In this document: piece after piece, positions 3,146 through 39,770 of the stretch
How the letters are laid out: each line of letters begins with the position of its first letter
Position numbering within the stretch: position 1 is the stretch's first letter
From: Ctena decussata
Taxonomy: Eukaryota > Mollusca > Bivalvia > Lucinida > Lucinidae
Direction of reading: 5' to 3'
Assembly: GCA_963989385.1 (NCBI GenBank)
Contig: OZ022509.1
Coordinates: forward strand, 78,328,667-78,392,666
Length of the DNA stretch: 64,000 bases
Notes under the pieces: generated by a model
Seen by the model: the letters and a program-made list of their open reading frames with translations, nothing else
Databases searched by the model: none
What the model was told of the DNA's origin: nothing
Program-made: the position numbers and the translations under genes

Positions 3146-3161
3146 TCTGCTGTATTTAGCT

Positions 3162-3237
3162 GGGCCGCGTAGCGCAATCGGTAGGGCACCTGACTCATAA
3201 GTCAGAGGTCCTGGGTTCGAAACCCGGTCTGGCCACA
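3162..3237 (+). tRNA. tRNA-like SINE head 1
   Basis: The A-box region TAGCGCAATCGGTAGGG and the B-box GGTTCGAAACC are clear. The anticodon arm CTGAC-TCATAA-GTCAG has a six-base loop with CAT, and the 3' end GGCC pairs with the 5' GGCC. The arm geometry is not that of a functional tRNA, so this is read as the pol III promoter of the SINE and not as a host tRNA-Met gene. Confidence 0.7.
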
Positions 3238-3410
3238 TACTTTCGTTTCTCCTTCTGCTGATTCAAGAAGGACAGTTGTCAGTTACTGGCAAAAGTATGT
3301 GCACTTAGTACTGGTTAACCGCTTAGGAGGTCTAAGCCTGCCCAGGAGTAGTGTGGTTAGGTTAACTGACCGTCCCGACATGACCTTAGCTGTTTACCAT
3401 GGACGTTGCT

Positions 3411-3485
3411 GGGCCGGGTAGCGCAATCGGTAGGGCACCTGACTCATAAGTCAGAGGTCCTGGTTCGAATCCTGGTCTGGCCACA
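3411..3485 (+). tRNA. tRNA-like SINE head 2
   Basis: Second copy of the same head, nearly identical to the first, with B-box GGTTCGAATCC and the same CAT-containing loop. It has lost one G before the B-box relative to copy 1. Expected to act as an internal pol III promoter, if active at all. Confidence 0.7.
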
Positions 3486-3735
3486 TACTTTCGTTTCTCG
3501 TTCCGCTGATTCAAGAAGGGCAGTTGTCAGTTACTGGCGAAAGTATGTGCACTTAGTACTGGTTAACCGCTTAGGAGGTCTAAGCCTGCCCAGGAATAGT
3601 GTGGTTAGGTTAACTGACCGTCCCGATATGACCTTAGTTGTTTACAGTGGCCGTTAAGCATCAAATCAACCAACCAACCAACCATGGACGTTAAGCATCA
3701 AATGAATCAATCAATCAATCAATCTGCTGTATTTA

Positions 3736-29640: not shown

Positions 29641-30280
29641 TCATATTTTCGCTCTCTTAAACAATACTTATGTCATAACAAACACTTTTACAATCACTCG
29701 AATCAGTAGTACCGGGGAATTTCCAAACCTTCGGACAAATGAACTAATTACCTGTCCTAAATTGGACTAGTTTGGCTTGAAAATGCAGTCAAAGATGGAA
29801 TGCTCGTTTAAGAACAGTCTTATCTTTGCTCAAACCTATCGGTACCAACACTCAGAAGCTATACGGTAAATGTGATAACAGTGACATCCTTCTTTTGAGG
29901 AATAGCTTTCGTGCAACTGTATTGCAATTGTTAGCCCAAATAGAACAAATTAAATACAGCAAACATCTGATATTTGAGTTCTCGTTTTGGCTATCTATCA
30001 ATCCCCATATACTGACACAAAAAGAAACTAGGCTGTTAACTTAGAAATAAAGTACCTGTGTAGATAAAATATAAACTAATTAGATATCAAAATGAGTGGA
30101 GTTCATTTGGCAACATGGTGCATTATTTTTAAATTATTTTAGATAATTTTGAGTATATTTCTTTATCCTTAAATGACTAGGGGGTAAAAAAGTAAAAGTT
30201 GCACATTTTAAAATTCTGATCTAAAATATTTTTGACCGCAGATATGTGACAATTTATATGGAAATTAATCAGTATCTAGC
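29641..30280. other. no gene seen
   Basis: A 72-codon frame at 29826-30044 shows no recognisable family, and no repeats are shared with the window. Confidence 0.5.
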
Positions 30281-30511
30281 ATGTCCTCCTCTCCTACAGA
30301 TCAACGCAAGTATACTAAAACCATTCAGAACCGTTTGTGTACCTACACGTTGCTCTTGCGCAGTTCTTGTAGCGGTTTTGGGACGTTGGTGATCTCTAAC
30401 GTGCTTATTCTGATAGACAAGTGGTTGCAAATTGATGTCGGCATTTCTGTGGCAGTTAAACTGTCTAGCGACGTCACTAGCACTGATGCCAGATGCAAGT
30501 TGTAGTAGCAC
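30281..30511 (-). pseudogene. broken Tc1/mariner-like transposase N-terminal fragment
   Basis: The minus strand reads QLASGISASDVARQFNCHRN, the typical helix-turn-helix segment of a Tc1/IS630-type transposase. It is followed by a VRDHQRPKTATRTAQEQRV linker in the place where these proteins have R-P-G-R-P-R and T-x-x-Q-D/E-x-x. The frame then departs from the family after about residue 55, and the catalytic DDE part is absent. It is a truncated, frameshifted remnant of a DNA-binding domain. No terminal inverted repeats were found around it. Confidence 0.6.
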
Positions 30512-31315
30512 CAGATTTTGTTTTAGTTTTCTTGAAGCCGAGGCATCTTGTAAACGATGAAATTCAAAACGAAATGTGATTTTGTAATTGCATAATCAGT
30601 ATAGAATTTGGTCAGTGTTAACACGTAGCTGTAAACATGTGCACTGAAAGCACGTGCAAACAGTTGCAAAATGTCCTGTGACCAGTTTGAAGGACACGCT
30701 TGCTCTAGAATATTGTGCCATTTAGTACAGTATGTAGAGGAGTATTTACACACTCTTGTTGCATGATTTAATTGCTGTAAGCAGAGCAACTAAAAAGTTA
30801 AGCTAAATAAAATAGTACATGGTTACTTTTTGGTGTGTAGCATTTTAATGATTGAATTCTAAATACTCACTTTATAGCGGGTGACATGTTTACACACTTG
30901 CTTCTGATGTTATTCAAGCGCAACTTTGTACGGAAAGACCTAATAACCCCAGAACTAAATTGGCTTCATTTTTACATCCGTTTGGGTAAATCAGTTTTAG
31001 GTAAACAATAAGTAGTTTCCAAATTGTCAGTTAATCAAATTTAAAATTGTTGATTGTCGTTATCGTTTTGATTTTAAATTAAAAGAATTTGGATAGCTTT
31101 GTATGTTTGTTTTTGACCATAATATTTCAGGATTGGCAACATTAAGTCAAAAATGGTATGACAGTGAAGTGCACATGCAGGCTCTTAACAGACTTAAAAG
31201 AACAGTTTAGGTCACGAAATCTCAATTCTCTTAACAATTAAATTGGACTTAGCTATCAGCGCAGACGCCTATTCTGGAAATGCGCATTTTGCATTTTTTC
31301 TCCCGACCAAGCTCC
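30512..31315. other. no gene seen
   Basis: Open frames are short and unrecognised; no repeat landmarks. Confidence 0.5.
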
Positions 31316-35328: not shown

Positions 35329-35474
35329 AAATGGAAAACTCATATCAGCCTGAACGTCCGCACAAAATTATAAAATCCCTCTCTTTGTGAACAAGAAACC
35401 ATGAAACCACAGGAATTAATCAATTAGGATTCTGTGAATTATGGCAAATTGCATTGAGATTTTTCGCATGCAGA

Positions 35475-35631
35475 TGTCATAGGGTGTAGGTAATTAGGTA
35501 TATAAACACTTGTACTGCCTTGCGGTACAAGCCGGCTTTTATAGCGACGTGGTAGAGTGCTCGACTTTAGATCGAAAGGTCCCGGGTTCGATCCTCGGCC
35601 CGGGCGTGAGATTTTTTAAGAGTCCGTGACA
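35475..35631 (+). repeat. left LTR
   Basis: TGTCATAGGG start, TATATAAA at 35500-35507 as possible pol II TATA box, tRNA-like segment, ending GTCCGTGACA. Identical in length to the right LTR. Confidence 0.9.
35530..35617 (+). tRNA. tRNA-like pol III unit inside the left LTR
   Basis: TAGCGACGTGGTAGAGTG resembles an A-box and GGTTCGATCC (35585-35594) is an exact B-box. The T arm CCGGG-TTCGATC-CTCGG pairs. The anticodon arm TCGA-CTTTAGA-TCGA would place TTA at the anticodon (reads UAA), and six T follow at 35612-35617 as a pol III terminator. The acceptor stem pairs poorly, so it is not a usable tRNA. The same unit is in the right LTR at about 35805-35892. Confidence 0.65.
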
Positions 35632-35633
35632 AA

Positions 35634-35646
35634 TGGCGCCCAACGT
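35634..35646 (+). other. primer binding site, tRNA-Lys type
   Basis: TGGCGCCCAACGT, two bases after the left LTR, is the sequence expected to pair with the 3' end ACGTTGGGCGCCA of tRNA-Lys (CUU). Confidence 0.85.
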
Positions 35647-35737
35647 AAAATCCAGCCTGACCCCTGTGCAGTAATTCCTCGAGCCTATTCTTATATGCAG
35701 CTCTTTAGCCTGGAACTTCGGGGACGAAGTCCAATTT

Positions 35738-35749
35738 GGTGGGGGAGAA
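35738..35749 (+). other. polypurine tract
   Basis: GGTGGGGGAGAA ends exactly at the base before the right LTR, where plus-strand priming is expected. Confidence 0.85.
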
Positions 35750-35906
35750 TGTCATAGGGTGTAGGTTATTAGGTATATAAACACTTGAACTGCCTTGCGG
35801 TACAAGCCGGCTTTTATAGCGACGTGGTAGAGTGCTCGACTTTAGATCGAAAGGTCCCGGGTTCGATCCTCGGCCCGGGCGTGAGAATTTTTAAGAGTCC
35901 TTGACA
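35750..35906 (+). repeat. right LTR
   Basis: Matches the left LTR except for four substitutions. The T-run is shortened to five by an A, and the end reads GTCCTTGACA. Confidence 0.9.
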
Positions 35907-35910
35907 CAGA

Positions 35911-37365: not shown

Positions 37366-38763
37366 CAGTGGACTCGACAGTATCGGATCAAGTTCAATAA
37401 AACTCCCGTTTTGTTGTATATGAATGCTAAAAGTATGTATGTTATGACACAAAACAATTGCAAAATATCCCTTCTATCTATCCATGTCAAAATATTTACG
37501 AAATTTATTCCTTTAAGGGCAGATAACCTATGCAGACTTACGGTAGGGTCCTGCGACAGTAACGAATCAGGTGCGACAGTATCGGATCATATGATATTAT
37601 TTTATATGAGAGTTTCTCCTAGGCACTCTGACAACCTTCTTAGCTTCAATAATTCTGCTGCATAAACAGTTGGACCTATTAAACACTCTGAGGAAACTTT
37701 TACGGCCTTTCAACGATATTTTTCATGTGGTCCTTCACCAGCAACGGTTTTGTCTGTTAAATAAAAGTTGAATGCATACAAAACTACAAGCATGCCAAAA
37801 TTTCTTAACTCAGTAATCCCCTGCGCCTCATAGCATGAAACTACTCAAACAGTAAAGATCATAAACTGCCTTTGCAAAGTGTAGACCCTGATAAGACCGT
37901 GGTGTCTGACCAGGATCAACAAATTTACGGTGATTTTCCGCCTTAAAGATATTTCAGTGCAATCAGTGTATAAACACTACATGGTCATTCAACGAGTTCT
38001 CTGGCATTAATCTGAGTCTACACAGTGTACAGATGTCCATCCGATGAACGCCAGTCATTATTGGGTTCACATTCATGCGAGCTGATCTCGAATGTTTCAA
38101 CAGAATGTTAAGCAGAAGCTTGGTTGTGCTACGCATAACCTTCATTATCATACGCTAGAATGTGGGACTTGGGATGGGGGATATTTTACAAAAAGGATGT
38201 TGTCTTAGTTTTAAACTGATTTTCTTTGAACAAAAGACACAGCAGCCACTCAGGTAGTTGATTTATGACTTGTTTTCAGCATCAGACCGTACATCCAACA
38301 TGCAGTTTCCAGCTGAGGCCTGTATTTCAGTTCAAATTATATAATGATCCGTTACTGTCGCACATCGGTGCCTCACTTTTCAAGTCTTTAGTTTCATCAA
38401 ATACTGGGATGTCACAAAAATAATGACTGCCTGCAATTTTAGGGATGCCAGGACACATTACAAAGCAAAATTGGTTTCAATCGCCAAATGATAGAATAGT
38501 TTAAATAACCGAAATCTATCTTTGGGGTAACGAGCAACTGGCAAAATGCAAGCGCCGCTGAAGTGGGGCCAGGCTTTTCAACAACTTTGATTTGTTTCTC
38601 ACCCGCAGATTTCGATCGAATTTTCACCCTGCACTTTGCCATTGGTCGAACTTGATGACTGTTATATAATAGTAAAAACTGTTTGCTTCATTTGTGAGAA
38701 AAATGGTTGATAATCTAAGAGTGATCCGATACTGTCGATGATCCGATACTGTCGAGTCCACTG
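37366..38763. mobile_element. Tc1/mariner-type non-autonomous element, 1.4 kb
   Basis: The ends CAGTGGACTCGACAGTATCG and its exact inverse are flanked by TA on both sides (37364-37365 and 38764-38765). The satellite copies outside read GCCGATCA-TA-GTATCATT, exactly the reconstructed empty site. Extra copies of CGACAGTATCGGATCA lie just inside the ends (about 37573 and, inverted, 38345 and 38720). The interior has only short frames and no DDE transposase. TA duplication fits the Tc1/mariner superfamily. Confidence 0.88.
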
Positions 38764-38765
38764 TA

Positions 38766-39770
38766 GTATCATTAAATAGAATTATCTTAAAACGGTATTA
38801 AGTTTTTGCTTCATCTAAATTGGCTTTCTCTTGCACAAGGCAATTGAGGCAGCCATAAGCAGTGCCCCTATTCCGTTGCAATTGACTTATACAAAGCATC
38901 AGCTGAGGCCGTGGAAAGGGGAGGGGGATGGTCAACTATTTCAACTATCACAACGATTTGAGCCACTGAGATACACAAATGATTGGAGCCAGAATTCGAA
39001 CGTGGCGTGGGAAACATCATTCTATTCTCGTACGAAATGCGTGTCAAATCTGTTGATACTTTGAGCAGTCTCCTAACTATGAACAGCATTTGATTGGTAT
39101 TGCACGTTACACAGGAAGTTGCCGATCATAGTATCATTAAATAGAATTATCTTAAAACGGTATTAATTTTTTGCTTCATCTAAGTTGGCTTTCTCTTGCA
39201 CAAGGCAATTGAGGCAGTCATAAGCAGTGCCCCTATTCCGTTGCAATTGACTTATACAAAGCATCAGCTGAGGCCGTGGAAAGGGGAGGGGGATGGTCAA
39301 CTATTTCAACTATCACAACGATTTGAGCCACTGAGATACACAAATGATTGGAGCCAGAATTCGAACGTGGCGTGGGAAACATCATTCTATTCTCGTACGA
39401 AATGCGTGTCAAATCTGTTGATACTTTGAGCAGTCTCCTAACTATGAACAGCATTTGATTGGTATTGCACGTTACACAGGAAGTTGCCGATCATAGTATC
39501 ATTAAATAGAATTATCTTAAAACGGTATTAATTTTTTGCTTCATCTAAGTTGGCTTTCTCTTGCACAAGGCAATTGAGGCAGTCATAAGCAGTGCCCCTA
39601 TTCCGTTGCAATTGACTTATACAAAGCATCAGCTGAGGCCGTGGAAAGGGGAGGGGGATGGTCAACTATTTCAACAATCACAACGATTTGAGCCACTGAG
39701 ATACACAAATGATTGGAGCCAGAATTCGAACGTGGCGTGGGACACATCATTCTATTCTCTTTCTAAACTT
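38766..39770 (+). repeat. 365-bp satellite array
   Basis: Three units start near 38766, 39130 and 39495 at 365-bp spacing with very few differences between them. The identical small frames on both strands at 38831, 39196 and 39561 are this unit read three times. Such close identity implies recent amplification or an assembly-sensitive region. Confidence 0.92.

Follow-up and report, generated by a model that had tools for sequence, protein, structure and literature searches.

The LTRs of Cassandra, a plant TRIM, contain 5S rRNA sequence. In animals, TRIMs with tRNA-derived sequence in their LTRs were named Helenus (Kojima, 2024; PMC10886601), and the accessible portion of that paper records their occurrence in six animal phyla, with 4-bp target site duplications (TSDs), Gypsy-like primer sites, a published size range of 311-1263 and several families per genome. 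Helenus elements with tRNA-Lys primer sites are known from wasps, vertebrates and bivalves, the TRGCY motif is found in most, not all, Helenus LTRs, and their pol III function is described there as not yet validated (PMC10886601). Bivalves also harbor biv-TRIM, in which no canonical primer site could be recognized by those who described it, and the accessible text of that report makes no mention of pol III (PMC6934838).

Within the window (the whole 64-kb stretch of Ctena decussata DNA that was analysed) lies an element that we regard with considerable confidence as a 432-bp LTR element of the Helenus kind, present in hundreds of copies and characterized by a likely pol III RNA, apparent priming by tRNA-Lys(CTT) and a predicted Gypsy-type helper. 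In the model we propose, RNA pol III would transcribe the element from a tRNA-like promoter inside the LTR, the host's tRNA-Lys(CTT) would prime reverse transcription, and the enzymes of a Gypsy-type helper would copy and insert the product. In addition, the family may leave a readable record of failed reverse transcription, in the form of strong-stop DNAs that are palindromic or joined to tRNA (to 76 nt, CCA included), some with a TSD; the chances for and against this second proposal appear to us about even.

Anatomy and genomic distribution of the element

Sequence and repeat comparison show a complete, protein-less miniature LTR element, present as a single copy within the window (Table 1). 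Its two 157-bp LTRs are direct repeats that differ by four substitutions and no gap, their termini read TGTCA...TGACA, and the flanks (...GCAGA on the left, CAGAAA on the right) yield the TSD CAGA. The interior opens with AA and TGGCGCCCAACGT and closes with GGTGGGGGAGAA, which abuts the right LTR; no ORF of at least 120 aa overlaps its 118 bp. The primer site, TGGCGCCCAACGT followed by AAAATCC, is complementary over 13 nt to the CCA-tailed 3' end of tRNA-Lys(CTT), as read from a gene of the same genome. The initial annotation had described a complete 432-bp miniature LTR element with 157-bp LTRs, a Lys-type primer site, a polypurine tract and a CAGA duplication, and all of these parts were seen.

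Table 1. Positions in the window of the element, its parts and its flanking duplications
Feature	Positions	Strand	Basis
Target duplication CAGA, left	35471-35474	.	sequence
Left LTR (157 bp)	35475-35631	+	repeat comparison
TATA-like box TATATAAA, left LTR nt 25-32	35499-35506	+	sequence
10-nt palindrome AAGCCGGCTT, LTR nt 55-64; head-to-head junction, putative RNA 5' end nt 55-59	35529-35538	+	
tRNA-like segment, left LTR	35535-35606	+	RF00005, 21.9 bits, cut-off 29
A-box-like TAGCGACGTGG, left LTR	35542-35552	+	sequence
B box GGTTCGATCC, left LTR	35585-35594	+	sequence
T6 run, candidate pol III terminator, left LTR	35612-35617	+	sequence
Non-coding interior (118 bp)	35632-35749	+	no ORF of at least 120 aa
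Primer site, 13 nt, TGGCGCCCAACGT	35634-35646	+	sequence, tRNA-Lys(CTT) comparison
Polypurine tract GGTGGGGGAGAA	35738-35749	+	sequence
Right LTR (157 bp)	35750-35906	+	repeat comparison
tRNA-like segment, right LTR	35810-35881	+	RF00005, 21.9 bits, cut-off 29
B box, right LTR	35860-35869	+	sequence
T5 run, right LTR	35888-35892	+	sequence
Target duplication CAGA, right	35907-35910	.	sequence

Along the LTR, a TATA-like box (nt 25-32) is followed by a tRNA-like segment (nt 61-132) that holds an A box (nt 68-78) and a B box (nt 111-120), and then by a T run (nt 138-143). The Rfam tRNA model RF00005 aligns end to end in both LTRs, with mispaired acceptor and D stems and a score of 21.9 bits against a cut-off of 29, and ARAGORN called no tRNA in the element's LTRs. 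A functional tRNA gene in the LTR is unsupported, given the sub-threshold score and the lack of an ARAGORN call; the segment is tRNA-like, not a tRNA gene. The consensus forms used were TRGYNNARNNG for the A box and GGTTCGANNC and GGTTCGANNCC for the B box. An A-box-like segment, an exact B box and a T run had been claimed for each LTR, and all three are there, with the T run being T6 on the left and T5 on the right, but the exactness of the B box GGTTCGATCCT holds for GGTTCGANNC and fails for the 11-nt GGTTCGANNCC; TAGCGACGTGG, the A box, departs from its consensus at one base. Of the box motifs of Helenus, GGTTC and TGG are present, and the position of TRGCY reads TAGCG, one base off. No Rfam match to 5S rRNA was found in the window at gathering cut-offs or in the element at E up to 10, and a 34-nt LTR pattern had no match in IMG/VR.

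The genome (1.66 Gb, 245 contigs) was searched for further copies, a check that the initial annotation had proposed, and the outcome is a dispersed family. With 40 of 1,645 candidates scored, the full-element search gave at least 63 matches, at least 43 of which span at least 409 of the 432 bases at 94-100% identity, a count that includes the copy in the window and also some array units that overlap. A pattern for the start of the interior was found at 200 places (up to three mismatches) and one for the junction of LTR end, primer site and AA at 445 (up to one mismatch), the reversed-pattern controls being 0 in both cases; the LTR-end pattern was found at 1,865 places (up to two mismatches; reversed control 47). 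The excess of LTR ends over junctions suggests many solo LTRs, although the mismatch limits differ and no ratio is given.

The TSDs were scored in a set of 122 loci (L001-L124 less L019 and L026; some others overlap), in which units with the same body were collapsed and only those with both ends readable were counted. Perfect 4-bp TSDs flank 16 of the 29 readable canonical LTR-interior-LTR copies, whereas shuffling of the right flanks gave a mean of 0.81 and a maximum of 6, with none of 50,000 shuffles reaching 16; shifted controls gave 0, 2 and 0, and 5-bp TSDs were found in 0 of 29. Among the 13 canonical copies that lack a perfect TSD, L012, L013, L033 and L108 continue into primer-site sequence. 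Three insertions (L002, L007 and L022) look young, because their LTR pairs are identical and their TSDs intact, and in L017, L027 and L056 tandem LTR-interior arrays lie inside one TSD. A solo group of 12 units had no TSD, but these were chosen for odd right ends and are uninformative on true solo LTRs. A chance or simple repeat is ruled out by the genome-wide family, the reversed-pattern controls of 0 and the TSDs.

At 10 sites (L075, L086, L093, L096, L097, L115, L119, L120 and L123), a second type of interior accompanies the same LTR family. To judge from these sequences, LTRs and interiors have undergone reassortment.

The window holds other repeats as well. Positions 3159-3645 consist of two tandem 248-bp units whose tRNA-like heads (35.5 and 39.2 bits in Rfam) have CAT where an anticodon would be, which suggests a SINE with a tRNA head or a tandem repeat. 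B boxes in tRNA-like contexts also occur at about 32033 (-), 49419 (+) and 49883 (-), with a T run after two of the three; they possibly belong to other tRNA-derived SINEs. A 365-bp tandem repeat (2.7 copies, 99% matches) occupies 38764-39759, with a 17-bp repeat adjoining at 38722-38755. On the minus strand, an open frame of 108 aa at 30272-30595 has helix-turn-helix matches below curated cut-offs; we take it to be, perhaps, the start of a decayed transposase. Elsewhere in the assembly, the mitochondrial contig C245 (locus L139) carries a COI that is highly divergent and has a long additional C-terminal extension in frame (code 5). Its best match, to an unnamed protein, reaches 76% identity, and the best named matches, spread over many animal groups with bivalves among them, reach about 65%.

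RNA start and polymerase

If the head-to-head LTR junction described below is the self-paired 3' end of minus-strand strong-stop DNA, the RNA starts at LTR nt 55-59, and we infer a start 2-6 nt upstream of position 1 of the tRNA-like segment. Pol III starts at this distance on tRNA genes. Such a start would fit pol III, and with the TATA box upstream it would fit pol II too. R would begin at nt 55-59, its end probably lying at the T run close to nt 143, and a full-length RNA would accordingly need to read through the first T run.

The counts among 142 distinct LTRs bear on the choice of polymerase. The A box TAGCGACGTGG is exact in 110, the B-box core GGTTCGA is present in 125 and a run of at least four T in 137, and boxes are likewise kept in other Helenus families (PMC10886601, section 3.5, in the part accessible). 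AATAAA is found in just 2 of the 142, and the TATA stretch (nt 23-31) is more variable than the LTR average (0.091 vs 0.054). These observations argue against the idea that the same element is transcribed by pol II from the TATA box at nt 25-32, with the tRNA-like segment being a SINE passenger in an ancestral LTR. That idea does have points in its favor: TATATAAA begins 30-34 bp upstream of the deduced start, TATA[AT] lies within nt 16-40 of 134 of the 142 LTRs, and a full-length RNA made by pol II would meet no pol III terminator, whereas the T6 run of the left LTR should halt pol III before the interior. On balance, we see transcription by pol II as possible and rather unlikely, and pol III as clearly the more probable polymerase; transcription from the LTR by pol III, a proposed trait of Helenus and TRIMp3, is what we would predict for this family.

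Conservation of the boxes was considered as proof of pol III use and dropped as not significant. Variation is 0.026 in the A and B boxes, half the 0.054 of the entire LTR, but selection on them is unsupported because 17% of random pairs of 11-nt windows are equally conserved and U5 (0.016) is even more so.

LTR joints to tRNA-Lys and to inverted LTRs

A set of rearranged copies is found alongside the canonical ones. A pattern of LTR end, two free bases and TGGCGCCCAACGTGG (up to one mismatch) occurs at 57 places (control 0), and the loci examined contain 57 LTR ends that continue into the complement of tRNA-Lys(CTT) past the 13-nt primer site of the window element. The joined complement is 14-76 nt long, with GG(GGC) extending it, and the pattern is blind to extensions shorter than about 14 nt. 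Ten of these sites lead to the second interior type, and 5 of the 10 have an 18-nt primer site; an 18-nt extension alone is therefore no proof of tRNA copying, because the second interior may encode such a site. Of the other 47 sites, 19 have a complement of 14-17 nt, 21 one of exactly 18 nt and 7 a longer one. The sites are not all separate events, since some joints recur at several places (L076/L092; L080/L082/L084/L121), and when 14 tail-to-tail units are set aside and repeated joints merged, 29 distinct joints are left, with 15 at 14-17 nt, 7 at 18 nt and 7 beyond. In HIV-1, as described in the accessible part of one report, the methylated A58 of the primer (m1A58) stops plus-strand strong-stop synthesis at 18 nt, and on unmodified tRNA the full-length tRNA is copied, with a few internal stops as minor products (PMC13191261).

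Four copies run clearly deeper into the tRNA, namely 27 nt in L091, 43 nt in L073, 75 nt with three differences in L102 and 76 nt with one deleted base in L078, and all four open with an intact TGG, the complement of CCA. Two further read-through calls, L113 (22 nt, doubtful) and L077 (31 nt, maybe from another tRNA-like template), are not relied upon. When any TGACA end followed by read-through was searched, 6 places were found (control 0), 5 of which are LTRs of this TRIM family. Matches to the tRNA body number 14, comprising 10 genes and 4 copies with CCA (L078, L102, L130 and L138). In L130, a forward tRNA-Lys with CCA lies between an older related LTR, to which it is joined, and an inverted LTR. 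Separately, L138 (G000:C6:16367000-16367700) is a tRNA-Lys copy with a genomic CCA and no family LTR seen beside it, and resembles a processed retrocopy of a tRNA.

At 14 of the 57 sites, what comes after the tRNA copy is the element's own LTR in inverted orientation, with nothing between the two in 13 of the 14. This order would be expected of a plus-strand product if its 3' end, ...GCCC-AACGT-GGGC, folded back and self-primed. A further four sites have one joint in common, leading to the apparent inverted end of a different Lys-primed LTR element; in L076 and L092, the common joint leads to the inverted LTR of a second Helenus-like family. Each of these sets may be one event that was copied later, and the foreign-LTR joints give the impression that one particle had contained RNAs of different elements. 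The second family appears to be the one seen at L010, where an LTR-like repeat contains two tRNA-Thr(GGT) calls (1139-1212 and 1373-1446). These are among the five that ARAGORN made across 68 loci, four for tRNA-Thr(GGT) (two in L010, one each in L016 and L051) and one for tRNA-Ser (L053). Integration targeted to tRNA genes was considered and dropped, since the calls of L010, the sole locus inspected, lie within that repeat. Such tRNA-Thr-like LTR copies would inflate tRNA gene counts.

A second kind of joint connects two LTRs head to head. The junction CCACGTCGCTATAAAAGCCGGCTTTTATAGCGACGTGG, the one that the genome-wide junction search covered, occurs at 22 places with up to three mismatches, 14 of them exact (control 0), which make 18 clusters when places within 2 kb are merged; L025 has a further variant. 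It sits in the palindrome AAGCCGGCTT at LTR nt 55-64, and nt 54 is wholly absent. Among the 68 places within L001-L070 that had been chosen by interior or whole element, 9 have inverted parts; L025, L039 and L068 share the head-to-head junction, and the junctions of the others differ from one another. Minus-strand strong-stop DNA of HIV-1 self-primes at the R region, according to the accessible part of PMC4668388. Hairpin energies of the strong-stop DNA ends were no better here than those of shuffles, and the case for snap-back hence rests on junction sequences, not on folding. The palindrome at nt 55-64 could also prompt template switches by itself, irrespective of where the RNA starts.

From these structures, we infer that the rearranged copies are integrated dead-end products of reverse transcription. 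Plus-strand strong-stop DNA would have run into the primer tRNA, often snapped back and then integrated, and minus-strand strong-stop DNA, with the AAGCCGGCTT palindrome at its 3' end, would have used that palindrome to pair before integrating. Eleven U3-to-U3 units (an LTR and, further on, an inverted LTR, with a U3 end on either side) have readable ends, and a 4-bp TSD surrounds the whole unit in 4 of the 11 (L015, L062, L094 and L102; p 0.005 by shuffling), with 7 lacking one; integrase apparently accepted such units, given these duplications. Units with two U5 ends had a TSD in 0 of 5.

Could the LTR-tRNA and inverted LTR structures instead be ordinary nested insertions, insertions next to tRNA genes, or assembly chimeras? 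The family is abundant and nested copies exist, some joints recur, and the structures are those of the assembly. After merging, moreover, the peak at 18 nt is blunter, which together with the repeated joints weakens the reading as a record of reverse transcription and strengthens this alternative. Three observations nonetheless make it improbable in our view: one kind of head-to-head junction recurs in as many as 18 clusters; one 4-bp duplication flanks each of the four U3-to-U3 units as a whole; and in L078 and L102 the CCA complement follows directly after LTR+AA, whereas none of the 10 places at which the tRNA-Lys(CTT) gene was read continues into CCA. A chance segmental duplication of a tRNA-like repeat, which the initial annotation had named as the outcome that would overturn it, could yield two near-identical 157-bp tandem copies, but its probability is negligible in view of hundreds of dispersed copies with the same anatomy, for the LTR pair is not unique and the copies have primer site, purine tract and target duplications.

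A joint of a different sort may point to the helper. The right LTR of L012 continues into AAATGGCGCCCAAC and an open frame whose beginning lies within the primer site. This open piece had no Pfam match above noise; a second one downstream in the same flank, scanned separately, matched PNMA (E 4.1e-14), which we take to be a Gypsy-derived gag. The arrangement suggests that a switch occurred at the primer site to the RNA of a Lys-primed Gypsy-type element, which would make the latter a candidate for the helper class only.

Relation to known systems

The raw sequence confirms a recently described class, that of LTR elements that have seemingly borrowed a SINE-like promoter, and the genome appears to keep dozens of this element's failed replication intermediates. 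If so, the primer tRNA, the m1A58 stop and the RNA 5' end might all be read from scars without an RNA experiment, and the scars would offer a test of the RNA start and the priming tRNA, both of which have so far rested on sequence comparison for Helenus. A strong-stop model for the origin of SINEs is said to have been put forward by Ohshima, Okada and others in the 1990s. The tRNA-plus-U5 units, if the reading as strong-stop DNA is right, would be the DNA form which that model predicts for the birth of tRNA-derived SINEs, and they would put definite loci behind the older idea that a tRNA-headed retroposon can start out as strong-stop DNA. The word strong-stop is absent from one review (PMC3747384), and the literature covered, which leaves most subscription journals outside, held no report of integrated strong-stop, primer read-through or palindromic LTR products as a genomic feature.

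TRIMs with tRNA-like LTRs are already known as Helenus, and on its anatomy, compared by description, the present element is a further member. It is shorter than about 1 kb and, at 432 bp, within the published size range, with two LTRs, a primer site, a polypurine tract and no coding capacity; both LTRs contain tRNA-derived sequence (the full-length RF00005 alignment, below cut-off); its primer site is complementary to a tRNA 3' end (13 nt of tRNA-Lys(CTT)), and the family has 4-bp TSDs (16 of 29) and tandem arrays, as do the Helenus elements in the part of PMC10886601 accessible. The integrated copies of the tRNA primer and the LTR palindromes seem to be undescribed in the main text of that paper, where a word search for 'palindrom', 'strong-stop' and 'inverted' found none of them.

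Beyond Helenus, the predicted logic is that of Cassandra, in which a pol III promoter likewise lies inside the LTR of a coding-less element (PMC10886601, accessible part), although the promoter sequence is 5S in Cassandra and tRNA-like here, with no 5S match in the element. The bivalve biv-TRIM, in the accessible part of its description, is also a small protein-less LTR element in an animal and forms tandem arrays, but its conserved inner segment TGATCCCAAAGGAC is absent from both strands of our element, which in turn has a primer site (PMC6934838). Finally, the same kinds of failed strong-stop intermediates have been described for HIV-1 in the accessible parts of two reports (PMC4668388, PMC13191261), whereas the products seen here sit integrated in an assembled genome, some of them with target duplications.
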